Positions 30,665 through 39,209 of a stretch of 39,863 nucleotides of DNA are shown one piece after another. This stretch comes from Methanosarcina spelaei. Lineage in GTDB: Archaea > Halobacteriota > Methanosarcinia > Methanosarcinales > Methanosarcinaceae. The stretch spans positions 1-39,863 of the forward strand of contig NZ_LMVP01000190.1 of assembly GCF_002287235.1 (NCBI RefSeq), read 5' to 3'. How positions within the stretch are numbered: the first letter of the stretch is position 1; every line of letters begins with the position of its first letter. A program made the position numbers and the translations under genes. A model generated the notes under the pieces. The model ran no database searches. It saw nothing but the letters and a program-made list of their open reading frames with translations, and was not told the DNA's origin.

Positions 30665-32111
30665 ATGAATCGTAATAAAATTGGAATAAGTATACTTGTT
30701 TTAGCAACTCTGCTGGTTGGTATAACATTGATACCTGCAGCAAGTGCACAGAAAGAGGATAATTACTCTGTAACTGTTGAGGAAGCTTTTAAACATGCTA
30801 ATGCAAACATGATAAGTTTTATAGCAGCCAATACACCAGGCTTTGAAAATTGGACAGGGGCATCTATTAATCCCAAACCAATTGAGCTTTATGACATAAA
30901 TGGTAAAAAATTATTTTATCAATTCTCAGTATATAAGACTCAGTACCAAAATCTAGTGATGAATGTAAAACTCAAAATCACTAGATTTTATAAATGGTCA
31001 CCATCCATGTAATACAACTTAGTGATTCAAGTCTTTAGATAGCGAATATCGATTTTGATAAAAACTGGATTCTTCTTGCTAATTAAGACTTTCTATCAAA
31101 AATGCAAAAATCACTGGATTTTGGAACAGAGTCGTATATAAAGAAAAGAAATTAACAGGTACAATCGACGTTTGTGCCGATAAAACGCTGGGACCTTCTA
31201 TCTACGATATTAAATTTGATCCTAAACCTTATAAATTGGCTGAAGCCATGAAAAAATCAATCGAAATAGCCAAAAGTGAATATTCAGATGGAAAAATCAA
31301 ATCAACCAATTTGGTTGTATACAGCTATCCGAGTATAGGTGCAATGACCATAGTAAAAGACAAGACTACTGGAGTTGAACATCGGATATTTGTAGATGCA
31401 TACACCCTTGAAGAGGTCGAAGATAAACCAGCAACTGAAACCAAACCTGGAGTTTGGTCAATGTATGACCAGATTTTGAAGTCTGGAAAGGAAAACAATT
31501 TAAAAGAATGGCAAAAAAGTGATGAACGTGCCAAATCTATAGAACAAGCAGCAACTAATAAAGGAGTTAATATTAATGCTGCAGTTACTGAAGAAAATAT
31601 TAAAAAACTCAGTAGTGATGCAATAGTTCTAAGTTCATTTACAGGTAAAATACTTGATATTAACGGTATTGGACAAGAACGAAGTGTTTTTTGTGGTCCA
31701 GCATGTATCCGAATGGTTTGTAAATATTATAATAAACCGACTCCCATCCCTACACAGGAAACAATCTATATGGGTGATGGACTGTGGAGTTGGAGTCCTT
31801 ATTCTCCTCCATATTCATCTGGGCTCTCAGCTGATGATATTGTAGAATGGGCTACATATCGATGGGAGAAAACGGGAACTATAGCTACTAGCTTTTCTAA
31901 TAGTGTCGCTATATCAGAAATTGAAAACAATAGACCATTTTTCAGTATGATTCCAAATCATTTTCGACTTTGTAAAGGATACATAGTTCAAGACGGATAT
32001 ACATATTTACGTCTTAATGATCCAGAGCCTACAGGTTCGACCTATGGTAATCCAGGGTTACTTGAACGCACATACGGCAGTTCAGAAATGAAACGTATAT
32101 ATGTAAGGTAA
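30665..32111 (+). pseudogene. C39-like secreted cysteine peptidase, split by a MITE insertion
   Basis: The gene is broken into two frames: 30665-31012 and a second part that resumes at 31134. Part one has a signal peptide (ISILVLATLLVGITLIPA, then ASAQ) and the start of a PepSY-like pro-region. Part two continues the pro-region and has a C39-like peptidase domain with the nucleophile region SVFCGPACIRMV after Gln, a likely His in PNHFRL, and RLNDPEP. Between them lies a 197-bp element flanked by GTATATAA. Removing it with one copy of GTATATAA joins SVYK to EKKLTGTIDV in one frame and gives a 413-residue protein. The present reading ends 26 codons into the insert. A TTG at 31236 could start a truncated product, but without a signal peptide it would not be secreted. 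Confidence 0.88.
30937..31133. mobile_element. 197-bp MITE-like element inside the peptidase gene
   Basis: Ends are inverted repeats of about 24 bp with three mismatches: the left starts GACTCAGTACCAAAATC and the complement of the right starts GACTCTGTTCCAAAATC, both going on to AGTGAT. The exact 8-bp target duplication GTATATAA is at 30929-30936 and 31134-31141. The interior has a further inverted copy of AAAATCTAGTGAT and no coding frame. The parent element is not in this window. Confidence 0.88.
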
Positions 32112-32270: not shown

Positions 32271-33521
32271 ATGAGTCCTAAGTTGGGATTTAAAATGGAA
32301 GAAATAACATATGATAAAACATATCGAAAGCATACTCTCATAAGAGTTTTGGAAATAACTTCACTTACGATTTTAGTATTGGCTGGTGTAGCAAGTGCAG
32401 CTCCATTTGCATATGTGACAAATCTGGGGAATTATTCTAACGATACAAATTATAATGGTGCTATCCCGACTCCTAGTGTCGCTGTAATTGACACAGCAAC
32501 TAACAATATTACAGCCAGAGTGCCTCTCGGCGATGGGTGGCCTGTGGGAGTTGCAGTCAACCCTGAAGGAACAAAGTTATATGTAGCGTCCGCAACTATA
32601 GACGACGTCTGCATTGTTTATGTAATTGACACAGCCGCAAACACGGTCAATACCAAAGTGAATATCAGAAGTAGTTATCCTTCGGGAATTACATTTAACC
32701 CTGCAGGAACAAGAGTTTATGTGACGAAGCAGCGAGACAACACCGATATCTCTGTAATCAACCCAGCGACAAATACCTTAATGGCACCGATTATTGTGGG
32801 GCCGAGTACTTATGATATTGCATTTACACCGGATGGAAAAAAAATCTATGCTGCAAACAGTCACAACAACACTATTTACATAATTGATGCGGCTACAAAC
32901 AAAGTTACAGCCAATATACCTGTAGGAGACAGTCCTTATGAAGTTGTAGTCACACCGGACGGAAAAAAAGTATACGTACCTAACTATAACAGCAGCACTG
33001 TGTCTGTAATTGACACCGCCACTGATAATGTTACAGCAACCGTACCTGTAGGAGACTCGCCTCATCGTGTTGCAGTTACTTCTGATGGAAATAAAGTATA
33101 TGTAGCTAACAACGACACTGTCTCTGTAATTGATACAGCCACAGATACTGTAATAGCCACCGTGCCTGTAGGAGCTTTTTCTCGTGAAATTGTAATCAGT
33201 CCAGATGGAAGTAAGGTATATTTAGGAAACTTATACAATAATAGTGTCACTGTAATTAATACAAAAACAAACACCGTCACAGCCAGAGTGCCTGTAGGAG
33301 AATGGCCCATGGGAATTGCAGTCACACCGGACGGAACAAAGGTATATGTGGCAAACGCCGAAAGTGACAATGTCTCAGTGATTGACACAGCCACAGACAC
33401 TGTTATAGCTACGGTGAATGCAGGAATCTATCCTACTGGAGTTGTAATTGTGCCTTTTATGGACTCTAATATGAGTGCTCAAAGCACAGAGGCAGTCTCA
33501 AATGCAACTGAAGATACATAA
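32271..33521 (+). CDS. YVTN beta-propeller surface protein, cut short before its anchor
   Basis: A 416-residue exported protein made of about nine YVTN beta-propeller units of some 42 residues (PDGKKVYVPNYNSSTVSVID, then TATDNVTATVPVGDSP). An N-terminal hydrophobic segment ends ASAAPFA, as in signal peptides. Archaeal YVTN proteins are surface-layer or adhesion components. The frame stops at TAA (33519-33521) just after a Thr/Ser-rich linker. In the same frame, past the stop, lie 48 more codons that hold a Ser-rich spacer and a PGF-CTERM-type anchor. The present protein should be exported and lost from the surface. The start may be ATG 32271 or ATG 32295, which has GGGA upstream. The preceding spacer holds a long inverted repeat. 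Confidence 0.85.
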   Translation: MSPKLGFKMEEITYDKTYRKHTLIRVLEITSLTILVLAGVASAAPFAYVTNLGNYSNDTNYNGAIPTPSVAVIDTATNNITARVPLGDGWPVGVAVNPEGTKLYVASATIDDVCIVYVIDTAANTVNTKVNIRSSYPSGITFNPAGTRVYVTKQRDNTDISVINPATNTLMAPIIVGPSTYDIAFTPDGKKIYAANSHNNTIYIIDAATNKVTANIPVGDSPYEVVVTPDGKKVYVPNYNSSTVSVIDTATDNVTATVPVGDSPHRVAVTSDGNKVYVANNDTVSVIDTATDTVIATVPVGAFSREIVISPDGSKVYLGNLYNNSVTVINTKTNTVTARVPVGEWPMGIAVTPDGTKVYVANAESDNVSVIDTATDTVIATVNAGIYPTGVVIVPFMDSNMSAQSTEAVSNATEDT

Positions 33522-35748: not shown

Positions 35749-36784
35749 CATCTAGTTCCTGAAAAATAAATCTCCACTTTACCTTAAAAACCGTTAACTA
35801 GCCTGTTCTCAACCAAGACTGCTGGATTTTATTAGATTTTTTACGGATATCCTATCTAAAGCGTACGTACCTGGCTATAGAAGTACATGGTACAACCTGG
35901 CTGAGGTTCTGGAACCTTACCATGTCCAGAGAATTAGCAAGAATGAAAGCCAGTTTTTAATCTCATGCTACTGGTTTTCAGTTAAGCTGCATGCCACACA
36001 GCTCTTACGCTTAAAATAATCGTCAAATGGTTTCTTATGTTTGCACTGAAAATTACCAGTAAGCAAATAAATTGCTTTTTTTCAAAATATAAGGTTATAA
36101 AGAGGCTTTTTAAGGATTGTACGAGTTAGATATAATTATATGCAGAATTTAAAGTTTTAAAAAACTTATTTTCTTGAAAAAATCCGTTAAAACCTTTTTA
36201 TCTAAAAAACCTATATCGAAGGTAAAAGTATATAATCGATACCGTAAGCAGCACTTCGAAGACAAAAACATAAATCAGATTAATATCATATTTAAGGAAA
36301 AAGTACAACCTAATTTTCTTGGAAATACTTGGGGACTTATAAACCTGAGATTTCAGCAACTTGCCTTTAAAACCCGAGTTTAAAGCGGCTTATAAGTGTC
36401 AAACGCATCATATACGGGTAAAAATAACTTTTAAATTTTAAAAACCTTTATTTTGCGAATTAAATCATTTAAAACTATTATTTGATTAATTAAACCTTTT
36501 TAAGCTATTTTTTAGTATAAGTATATTTATATTTAATCTGGCGAATTTTAGAATTGTCAAGTTGCAGGTAGTCGGCAAGACAACTGGAACTGGTAAAGAC
36601 GACTAGGTAAATTAAGCAGGTAATTAAGGTACAAAACAAAGTCGAGTAATAAGCGAGTAAAGCGAGTAATAACATAGTAAATAGAAGATTAAATAGAAGA
36701 TAGAAATTAGAAGATAGAAATAATAAAATAAATTAAATAATAAAATAAATTAAATAAATTTCTGGAGTGAGGTATGTGTTGAAA
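35749..36784. other. Gene-poor stretch with folded and protein-like patches
   Basis: At 35885-35925 ACATGGTA and TACCATGT enclose two smaller hairpins (AACCT/AGGTT and AGGTTC/GAACCT). The same patch can be read on the plus strand as a short protein-like run (YLAIEVHGTTWLRFWNL), so it could be a gene scrap. Further on the DNA is AT-rich; 36641-36760 holds short repeats (GCGAGTAA, AGAAGATAGAAAT, TAAAATAAATTAAA) just ahead of the secreted protein genes. A 69-codon frame at 36174-36383 opens with TTG and has no family or binding site; I do not call it. Confidence 0.45.
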
Positions 36785-37195
36785 ATGAAAAAGATAATGG
36801 GAATTTTCCTGGCAGTCTGTTTTGTACTGTCAGTAACAGTTGCATCAGTAAGTGCAGCGCCCTGGGACAATTTCAAATATAACAAATGGGACAACCAAAA
36901 GAACAAGTTTGACAAACAAGACAAGATTAAGTGGGGCAATTACAAGATTAACTGGAACAACGACAAGAGAAAATGGGACAACAATAAGAGAAAATGGGAT
37001 AACGATAAGAGAAAATGGGATAACGATAAGAGAAAATGGGACAATAAGAAACATGATAAAGAATACACCAAATGGTATAAAGTGTATATAAGTTGGTTTG
37101 TCAGCTATAAAACGTTCTGCGGTCAATATACTGAGTTCTACAGCTACTACTACGAATTCTACAGCAGTTATAGCAGCAACTTTGGAAGATGGTAA
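36785..37195 (+). CDS. Secreted Lys/Trp heptad-repeat protein, copy 1
   Basis: A 136-residue exported protein. A signal peptide (MGIFLAVCFVLSVTVASVSA) is followed by four or five near-exact seven-residue units KRKWDND (about residues 64-93), each encoded by a 21-bp unit, then an aromatic end rich in Tyr, Phe and Ser (YKVYISWFVSYKTFC, FYSYYYEFYSSY). Every seventh residue in the repeat is Trp and charge alternates, which fits a helical or fibrous shape. I know no characterised family; a cell-surface or envelope-binding role is only a guess. The next gene is a close tandem copy. GAGGT lies 11 bases before the ATG at 36785; TTG at 36779 is also possible. Confidence 0.8.
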   Translation: MKKIMGIFLAVCFVLSVTVASVSAAPWDNFKYNKWDNQKNKFDKQDKIKWGNYKINWNNDKRKWDNNKRKWDNDKRKWDNDKRKWDNKKHDKEYTKWYKVYISWFVSYKTFCGQYTEFYSYYYEFYSSYSSNFGRW

Positions 37196-37199
37196 GAAC

Positions 37200-37232
37200 T
37201 AGCTGTAAAATGAGATAGCTGTAAAATGAGAT
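37200..37232. repeat. Two copies of AGCTGTAAAATGAGAT
   Basis: A 16-bp unit occurs twice head to tail just after the stop of the first heptad-repeat gene. Confidence 0.85.
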
Positions 37233-37346
37233 GACAATTATCTCATATATCCTTTGGATTAAACAAGCAGCAATCTGGACTAAAAAGAGTAATTTCAATT
37301 AAACTTAGGATTTCAATTAAACTTGGGAGTGGATGATCTGTTAAAA

Positions 37347-37712
37347 ATGAAAAAAATACTGGGGATTTTCCTAGCAGTCTGTTTTGTACTGTCAGTGACA
37401 GTTGCATCAGTAAGTGCAGCATCCTGGGATAATGACAGGAACAAACGGAATGACAACAGGAACAAGTTTGATAACTACGACCGGAATAAGTGGGACAAAT
37501 GGGACAAAGATAAGAGAAAATGGGACAACGATAGGAGAAAATGGGATAACGATAAGAGAAAATGGGACAACGACAAGAGAAAATGGGACAATAAGAAACA
37601 TGATAGCGGGTACAATAAATGGTACGCAGCTTATATGAAATGGCTTAAAACGTATATGAACTGGTTTGGAGGCTATAAAAAGTTCTACGGCAATTATAAC
37701 AGGTACCGTTGA
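37347..37712 (+). CDS. Secreted Lys/Trp heptad-repeat protein, copy 2
   Basis: A 121-residue paralogue of the upstream gene. The signal peptide region is nearly identical in DNA (LGIFLAVCFVLSVTVASVSA), which points to recent tandem duplication. An Asn/Arg-rich lead (NDRNKRNDNRNKFDNYDRNK) precedes five KRKWDND/RRKWDND units. The tail is different in detail but similar in kind: KWYAAYMKWLKTYMNWFGGY, then KKFYGNYNRYR, with aromatic residues every three to four places. The tail is basic where that of copy 1 is Ser/Tyr-rich. The start is taken as the ATG matching copy 1; a longer frame opens with TTG at 37323. A structured region and repeats follow. Confidence 0.8.
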   Translation: MKKILGIFLAVCFVLSVTVASVSAASWDNDRNKRNDNRNKFDNYDRNKWDKWDKDKRKWDNDRRKWDNDKRKWDNDKRKWDNKKHDSGYNKWYAAYMKWLKTYMNWFGGYKKFYGNYNRYR

Positions 37713-37800: not shown

Positions 37801-37960
37801 TGGATTAAAAAACAATAGTCTGGATTAAAAGGATTAAAAAATAGTCTGAATTAAAAAATAGTCTGAATTAAAAATAGTCTGAATTAAAAAATAGTCTGGA
37901 TTAAAAGGATTAAAAAATAGTCTGGATTAAAAGGATTAAAAAATAGTCTGGATTAAAAAG
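37801..37960. repeat. Interleaved GGATTAAAAAATAGTCT repeats
   Basis: About eight copies of ATTAAAAAATAGTCTG-type units, some with an extra GGATTAAAA, form units of 16-17 and 25-26 bp after the second heptad-repeat gene. Confidence 0.88.
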
Positions 37961-38261: not shown

Positions 38262-39209
38262 TTAGCTTCCCCTGCGCTCCTCATCTATTAAGGTCACAAT
38301 ATTCTCACGCCCATGTTTGAACTTTTTAATTAGTCCTCTTTTTTCCAGTTCTGAAAGCAGAAGGCTGACTTTTACTTCAGAATACTCCAGCCGGCTGCGT
38401 AGTTCTTTTTGTGTAATTCTACCTCTGTGTCCTCTAATCATATCCAGGATTTCTCGCAGATCTGTGGTAAGAGGAGGTCTTTTTAAGTCAGCAGGCTCAA
38501 TTTTGGAGTTATCTGCAATTCCTATTCCTGAATCTCCGGACTCCAGTACTGCCTCCTTTGCTAAGACTGCTTCTCCGCGGTTTCCGAACTCCGGCTTCAT
38601 TCCAGAACCAGAGATTTTGCCGAGAGCATTTGCCAGAAAACCGGATATATTGACCTGCCCTGCCTGAAGCCTGTTTATTTTCATCTTACTCTGCTTTCTG
38701 GAAAGTTTATAACCTCCACCAAGCAGAATAAGAACCATAAAGGCTACTGGTAGGTAGCTTACAGTAAAAAGGTCAGTCCTTGTTTTTTTGGTGGAATTAA
38801 TACTATTGACACTACTTATTTCGTCTTCAGCTGTTTTCATTGCAGAGTTTTCGGAGACTGGATAAAGCAGGAGATCGAAGACATAGTTCCCTTCTTCTTG
38901 AATCTTCAAAGTTGTTTCTTTTAAATAAATCACGGTATTGTTTCGGTAATACCTTGCTGTAATAACGTAGTCTCCAGGACCGAGTTCAAAGGAATACATG
39001 CCGTCTTTTGCCAGTACTGACTGAGGGGGATTAGAATTGATACTAATCACAGTATCATTTAGGGGCTCAAGGGTATCCCATGCATATGTTGCCCCATGGA
39101 TTGTTGCAGTGATGTTGCTGTCTGCTAAGAAAGGTACTCCTGAGGAGGGGGAAGATATCCCTAAAGCGAGTAAAGCAGCAGTGCACAGAATATAGAACCT
39201 CAAGTTCAT
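38262..39209 (-). CDS. Membrane-anchored winged-helix regulator with sensor ectodomain
   Basis: A 315-residue protein. A signal peptide (FYILCTAALLALGISSPSSG) leads an outside domain of about 100 residues with a carboxypeptidase-regulatory-like beta-sandwich pattern (YSFELGPGDYVITARYY). One transmembrane helix follows (SYLPVAFMVLILLGGGYKL), then a variable cytoplasmic linker and a C-terminal winged helix (TTDLREILDMIRGHRGRITQ, then KELRSRLEYSEVKVSLLLSE and LEKRGLIKKF). This makes it a likely one-component signalling protein that senses something outside and binds DNA inside. Such fusions are known from Methanosarcina and other archaea with MarR-like domains. GGTAGAG lies just before the ATG. 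The likely target is not shown; the convergent secreted protein genes are the nearest. Confidence 0.82.
   Translation of the reverse strand: MNLRFYILCTAALLALGISSPSSGVPFLADSNITATIHGATYAWDTLEPLNDTVISINSNPPQSVLAKDGMYSFELGPGDYVITARYYRNNTVIYLKETTLKIQEEGNYVFDLLLYPVSENSAMKTAEDEISSVNSINSTKKTRTDLFTVSYLPVAFMVLILLGGGYKLSRKQSKMKINRLQAGQVNISGFLANALGKISGSGMKPEFGNRGEAVLAKEAVLESGDSGIGIADNSKIEPADLKRPPLTTDLREILDMIRGHRGRITQKELRSRLEYSEVKVSLLLSELEKRGLIKKFKHGRENIVTLIDEERRGS

Follow-up and report, generated by a model that had tools for sequence, protein, structure and literature searches.

The named protein family closest to the two archaeal genes treated here, A and B, is YjdP, the 'DDRRRQL repeat protein' (NF041443), an E. 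coli protein with no known function. As its name also indicates, YjdP resembles A and B in being small, in having a signal peptide and in carrying a charged seven-residue repeat with one hydrophobic residue per unit. However, its repeat contains Leu and no Trp, it is bacterial, and its scores of 24.0 bits (A) and 21.2 bits (B) lie below the curated cut-off of 90. Spy and CpxP, two periplasmic chaperones, offer an analogy as small exported helical hairpins under the control of an envelope sensor. A and B differ from them in their regular Trp heptads and archaeal promoter, and no Spy/CpxP family appears among their Pfam matches at E up to 1. Within Methanosarcina, the tandem-repeat surface proteins of M. 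acetivorans, such as those with RIVW repeats, are likewise repetitive, but their units have 42 and 45 residues and are not seven-residue helical repeats (PMC2447325). The Methanosarcina S-layer gene slmA1 encodes a surface protein and is preceded by a TATA box and by a long, conserved 5′ leader that may be structured as RNA (PMC3361143); in these respects it resembles gene A. The DUF7343 proteins (PF24034) form a further class with a member at this locus; the difference lies in the target element and genes that we propose for the element-linked group.

The window, that is, the whole stretch of Methanosarcina spelaei DNA analyzed, is 39,863 nucleotides long and belongs to a genome assembled in 559 contigs. 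A and B very probably belong to a shared regulon of extracellular proteins, and their chief interest is that this regulon comes with a promoter of its own, a leader RNA and a candidate sensor in the membrane. A new finding is that the module upstream of gene A, consisting of AT-rich boxes, a TATA box and a stem-loop, is common to other genes for exported proteins. The features are collected in Table 1.

Table 1. Features of the A/B locus (window coordinates)
Feature	Position	Strand	Basis
Weaker second element copy, boxes only	36115..36223	+	R1 16.3 bits, E 8e-4, model positions 7-119
Shared promoter/leader element upstream of gene A	36422..36591	+	model R1 match, 128.7 bits
About three imperfect AT-rich repeats, ~29-30 bp (AATTAAACC.TTTAAAACT.TTATTTT)	36430..36515	+	by eye, alignment A5
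TATA-box-like sequence TTTATATTTAA	36526..36536	+	nearly invariant in 27 elements
RNA stem-loop UUGUC-AA-GUUG-(8 nt)-CGGC-AA-GACAA	36554..36583	+	predicted transcript 5′ end
Gene A, 136 aa, secreted protein with Trp heptads, predicted hairpin	36785..37195	+	ORF read from ATG; purifying selection
Gene A signal peptide, 24 aa	36785..36856	+	by eye, with cleavage predicted after VSA
Gene A helix 1, mature residues 3-61, Trp heptads	36863..37039	+	AlphaFold2 model mc7cd7d55d917
Gene A helix 2, mature residues 68-110, Tyr/Trp/Phe heptads	37058..37186	+	AlphaFold2 model mc7cd7d55d917
Gene B, tandem paralogue of A, 121 aa	37347..37712	+	ORF
Gene B helix 1, mature residues 7-57	37437..37589	+	AlphaFold2 model ma5553e7b7eae
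Gene B helix 2, mature residues 63-96	37605..37706	+	AlphaFold2 model ma5553e7b7eae
Membrane-anchored winged-helix regulator, convergent	38262..39209	-	PF24034, E 2.5e-17

The two genes lie on the same strand, 151 nt apart, and their products are 64% identical. Alternative GTG or TTG starts up to 18 nt upstream of the ATG are possible for gene A. A sequence-only reading of this DNA had described two adjacent exported paralogues with near-identical signal peptides. Its coordinates are exact, and just one of the first 25 residues, MKKI(M/L)GIFLAVCFVLSVTVASVSAA, differs between the proteins (24/25, 96% identity). Its seven-residue repeat with one Trp is equally well founded: lag-7 self-identity of the mature parts is 0.419 in A (z 11.8) and 0.400 in B (z 8.6), levels reached by 0 of 2000 shuffles, and among lags 2-15 only lag 14 was likewise unmatched (0/2000). 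The KRKWDND unit contains three basic and two acidic residues and one Trp. Mature A (112 residues) has 27 basic, 15 acidic and 31 aromatic residues, mature B (97 residues) 30, 16 and 22, with net charges of about +12 and +14, respectively. Each has a single His; A has one Cys and B none. The same reading placed an aromatic tail behind the repeat. The aromatic end is there, but it is not a separate tail, since the Tyr/Phe/Trp-rich segment is also heptadic (Y-xx-W-xxx) and is predicted to form a second helix. The entire mature part of either protein is a single heptad architecture interrupted by a K-K-H hinge.

For both proteins the AlphaFold2 model is an antiparallel helical hairpin, with helices of 34-59 residues and heptad hydrophobic spacing. 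Mean pLDDT and pTM are 83.4 and 0.64 for A and 79.9 and 0.59 for B, values that come from shallow alignments (18 sequences) of low complexity, so that the fold may be over-confident. A and B are very probably secreted helical hairpins. In our assignment, with Trp at heptad site d, positions a to g of helix 1 read K, R, K, W, D, N and D; in helix 2, site a is occupied by Y and site d by W or F. In the models the Trp spacing is the one-per-heptad core of helix 1, i.e., a matter of helix packing. At the Trp site the relatives L013, L018, L020, L022 and L004 hold F, Y or L, an exchange that fits packing and speaks against a redox role. The spacing had been thought to hint at a fibre; packing within the predicted hairpin is the simpler reason. 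A and B are ordinary as small secreted helical proteins and unusual in the regularity of their Trp residues. Foldseek searches of the hairpin against the PDB gave no match at E up to 0.001 and two weak ones at E 8.7, and A and B have no match with E below 0.24 among PDB sequences. VIA-align scores of Z 7.8 to a designed helical assembly and Z 6.4 to an I-BAR domain were recorded, and identity with a known fold was rejected, these likenesses amounting to no more than a common arrangement.

With B as the query, the search for relatives that was proposed with the sequence-only reading finds homologues in 24 of 30 Methanosarcina genomes (E up to 0.001). A profile built from a 24-row alignment (A1) matches 30 of 111 genomes of the family, among them 29/30 Methanosarcina, some of which rest on the signal peptide alone. 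Outside the genus it matches 1 of 81 genomes, in a sequence with five internal stops that is best read as chance. By eye the hairpins fall into the A/B type, a type with a longer start (MGK/MRK..., e.g., L006, L028 and L037) and a type with Leu for Trp (L004, L051, L052 and L054). The sequence-only reading knew of no such characterized family, in agreement with the finding of no Pfam or NCBIfam match above cut-off for A or B; among the titles and abstract beginnings listed in literature searches there was nothing on these proteins or this leader. The signal peptide, by itself, is common to many further proteins with other mature parts, including DGYNDGY repeats, His-rich stretches and KYDGK repeats with a W-I-P-G-Y-W motif at their end; its profile matches 26/30 genomes, with up to 41 matches in one of them (G017). 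A relative at L049:6001-6597 (+) has a long GNVGA-type pentapeptide repeat inserted between signal peptide and heptads, and a Cys-rich secreted protein with CGCGYERND repeats and a similar signal peptide is encoded at L100:3350-3667 (-) of a Methanosarcina genome.

A and B are real genes under purifying selection. Pairwise dN/dS on the mature parts (19 pairs, five saturated with dS undefined) is 0.01-0.25 in 13 of the 14 defined pairs and 0.48 in the remaining one (G006-G028). Between the heptad units of a gene the differences are mainly synonymous (pN/pS 0.19). The sequence-only reading had named alleles rich in stops, in closely related strains, as part of what would refute it. The A-type genes are intact in relatives, whereas the second tandem copy does look broken in three genomes: in G005 its signal peptide and mature part lie in different frames, and in G003 and G029 only pieces are left. 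Synonymous divergence over the first 25 codons is low (36 pairs; pS 0.23, against 0.63 for the remaining codons); the corresponding values in three control genes were 0.33/0.42, 0.35/0.58 and 0.27/0.43, and a special constraint on these codons was set aside as partly general.

Upstream of gene A, BLAST finds a conserved non-coding block (about 36422-36590) in 10 of 10 orthologous or similar loci, nine named ones plus L088; in some loci the same block is reversed and lies upstream of the DGYNDGY gene. Used as a DNA query the element has matches in 24/30 genomes of the genus. A gene of the signal-peptide family follows on the same strand in 28 of the 30 matches fetched, with a gap of 47-267 nt between element end and start codon. 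The exceptions (L127 and L128) are short, weak matches with no such gene downstream by pattern search. An alignment of 27 elements (A5) brings out the AT-rich boxes, a stretch of AAGTATATTTATATTTAA that hardly varies and, some 25 nt beyond the TATA box in the downstream direction, a stem-loop. The AT-rich repeats are possible regulator boxes, and the TATA-like sequence presumably acts as a TATA box, as is usual in archaeal promoters. Archaeal transcripts usually start about 25 nt downstream of the TATA box.

The stem-loop is shared and covarying, and the transcript is predicted to start there. Its alignment (A4; 25 sequences, 24 distinct) is nearly gapless, with one single-base gap. Among the 24 distinct sequences 98.1% of 215 cells are paired, against at most 56.7% for slid partners, and RNAalifold returns the same helix of nine pairs. 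Most of the changes are G-U exchanges, and in two pairs both sides have changed; the covariation score is matched by 6 of 500 shuffles and the count of two-sided pairs by 54 of 500. Both the G-U exchanges and the unpaired AA on either side fit an RNA better than a DNA palindrome. In a wider set most rows keep the outer UGUC/GACA, and the inner stem takes other paired forms by eye, e.g., GCAGG/CCUGC. A structure model of 36 nt (R2) matches its own locus at 36551-36586 with 55.7 bits. In 58 sources, 200 kb in all, it has 16 matches, 14 of them within elements found by the model R1 and on the right strand; many other R1 elements in these sources were missed by R2. Folding of single sequences is only mildly better than for shuffles (mean z -1.29 over 65 sequences, a few of the folded segments being misplaced), and in the 52-nt segment from the window itself (L105) the stem-loop is not the minimum-energy fold (z 0.1). 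Rfam has no family in the window at gathering score.

R1 is a sequence-only model trained solely on signal-peptide-family genes, and it matches in 29/30 genomes of the genus (E up to 0.1). By eye 30 of 31 elements outside the training set precede a signal-peptide gene, one of these being broken by unread bases. A fixed rule finds a signal-peptide-like ORF behind 29 of these 31, as compared with 29 of 107 in a control set of ORFs of at least 170 aa from the window and L038-L054. Genes found in this way include PKD-domain proteins, one of which, at L165, has a PGF-CTERM anchor, and secreted proteins of about 300 aa, the one scanned of these (L166) having no Pfam match. A and B themselves have no match to PGF-CTERM (PF18204). 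At E up to 1e-4, R1 matches 49 of the family's 111 genomes, spread over 5 of 14 genera, and outside Methanosarcina the match is mainly to the promoter part. The 20 elements read in other genera precede a secreted protein of about 170-370 aa (15), an ABC ATPase (4) or a small membrane protein (1), with one gene of each class scanned against Pfam; the fixed rule finds a signal-peptide-like ORF behind 16/20. In another genus the same promoter type stands upstream of the ABC ATPase gene at L218, L220, L222 and L224, and G091, G089 and G076 have a second element a few kb away, before a secreted helical protein on the other strand. Unlike gene A, the 11 DUF1608 S-layer loci of the window's own genome have no R1 match even at E up to 10 (0/11), and co-regulation with the S-layer was rejected. 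On the opposite strand, 2-3 kb downstream of the hairpins, lies the gene of a conserved secreted protein with DGYNDGYNKGY repeats, preceded by its own copy of the element (L005, 282-617 -; L038:8150-8485 -; L039:8277-8612 -); in the window's genome this gene opens contig C106, probably the next contig.

The convergent neighbour of A and B combines a signal peptide, an extracellular domain, one transmembrane helix (by eye) and a DUF7343 winged helix-turn-helix, which scores 62.9 bits with PF24034 (gathering score 27.6). Full-length orthologues occur in 23/30 genomes of the genus, and these 23 are exactly the genomes that R1 matches at E below 1e-18; the remaining seven have neither, a joint absence for which loss of the locus alone is a sufficient explanation. 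Relative to a set of 129 elements, 24/24 full-length orthologues and 18/24 long paralogues lie within 6 kb of an element, as opposed to 0/26 remote DUF7343 paralogues. In single-chromosome genomes 21 of 23 regulators are near an element, 0.32 being expected under uniform placement. Adjacency is strong evidence for linkage but not for independent events, since the main locus is passed on in one piece. Of the 129 elements, 67 are no more than 8 kb from a regulator; the other 62 are farther away or on another contig and would need action at a distance. On this basis the regulator is slightly more likely than not to control the A/B regulon, presumably by binding the element.

Our explanation, to which we give a probability of about one half as a whole, runs as follows. 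The regulator would most likely sense the state of the envelope through its outer domain and act through the AT-rich boxes upstream of the TATA box. Transcripts of element-linked genes would begin with the conserved stem-loop, and their products would be exported by the near-constant signal peptide. Mature A and B would be cationic antiparallel hairpins, with helix 1 made of charged one-Trp heptads, a K-K-H hinge, and a helix 2 whose Tyr/Trp/Phe stripes pack on helix 1. Outside the membrane they would most likely coat or cross-link acidic surface polymer and envelope proteins non-covalently, although binding of A and B to such partners, a polymer among them as the sequence-only reading already suggested, is put forward only tentatively. 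Quite possibly the whole is an undescribed archaeal envelope-sensing system, in which a one-component winged-helix regulator that spans the membrane controls, by way of a promoter with three boxes and a stem-loop RNA at the 5′ end, exported proteins with a constant signal peptide and a changing payload, Trp-heptad hairpins being one prominent class of them in Methanosarcina. The promoter itself would be of greater age and occur in other genera of the family too, driving helical secreted proteins and an ABC transporter there. Regulon, promoter and stem-loop suggest an uncharacterized program of cell-surface remodeling. A recognizable promoter with leader RNA and candidate sensor provides a direct handle on Methanosarcina surface genes; if the account is true, deletion of one regulator gene should switch many of them at once. 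For protein design studies A and B offer a natural, very regular helical hairpin lined with Trp and Tyr.

Several other roles can be considered for the hairpins. They might cross-link acidic methanochondroitin and thereby control aggregation, as would suit their positive net charge and the other surface proteins encoded by co-regulated genes. A review of Methanosarcina surfaces describes this polymer as carrying negative charge and says that the genes for making it are not known (PMC12369344). Hairpins (E below 1e-19) are nevertheless present in 17/22 Rnf-negative (Type I-like) and 5/8 Rnf-positive (Type II-like) genomes, counts that give no clear link with the capsule-bearing type, and this role is somewhat unlikely. 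RnfC_N served here as the Type II marker, Rnf being presumed to mark Type II Methanosarcina. An association with capsule-bearing Type I was dropped on this marker; the disaggregatase repeat, found in 27/30 genomes, does not discriminate the types. By analogy with Spy and CpxP the hairpins could instead be envelope chaperones, made under envelope stress to hold unfolded proteins. Small, exported, cationic and predicted to be helical hairpins, they have a membrane-anchored regulator as neighbour, and outside Methanosarcina an ABC ATPase next to a secreted helical protein is driven by this promoter. Such a function is unlikely all the same, given that A and B have no Pfam match to any such family, that their heptads are far more regular than those of Spy, and that PKD proteins and further surface proteins are part of the regulon's payload.

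An electron- or heme-related surface, suggested by the sequence-only reading, would make the 22-31 aromatic residues per mature protein, with Trp every seven residues, a ladder for extracellular electron transfer, the mechanism of which in Type I Methanosarcina is described as unresolved (PMC12369344). The CxxCH heme motif of c-type cytochromes is absent, and the few Cys and His residues, the exchange of Trp for Phe, Tyr or Leu in relatives and the presence of hairpins in Type II-like genomes leave the idea unsupported; it was rejected on composition and exchange, and we regard it as highly improbable. Cationic, Trp-rich proteins whose constant signal peptide precedes mature parts that differ strongly across paralogues could also be secreted antimicrobials or weapons between strains, but purifying selection on mature A and B between species and the lack of an immunity gene beside them in the three neighbourhoods read make this very unlikely. 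Many intergenic tandem repeats occur across the window, and A and B might be 21-bp DNA repeats that are open by accident; dN/dS well below 1, the pN/pS of the heptads and the conservation of signal peptide, hinge and upstream element bring this reading close to exclusion.

Other parts of the window contain further genes and repeats of note. A predicted peptidase C39-like protein is encoded at 31236-32111 (+; PF13529, E 5e-9), just downstream of a secreted-looking ORF at 30665-31012, and a YNCE/lactonase-type beta-propeller protein, probably exported, at 32271-33521 (+). Right after gene B, at 37833-37958, the intergenic region contains tandem repeats with units of 17 and 26 bp (ATTAAAAAATAGTCTGGATTAAAAGG).
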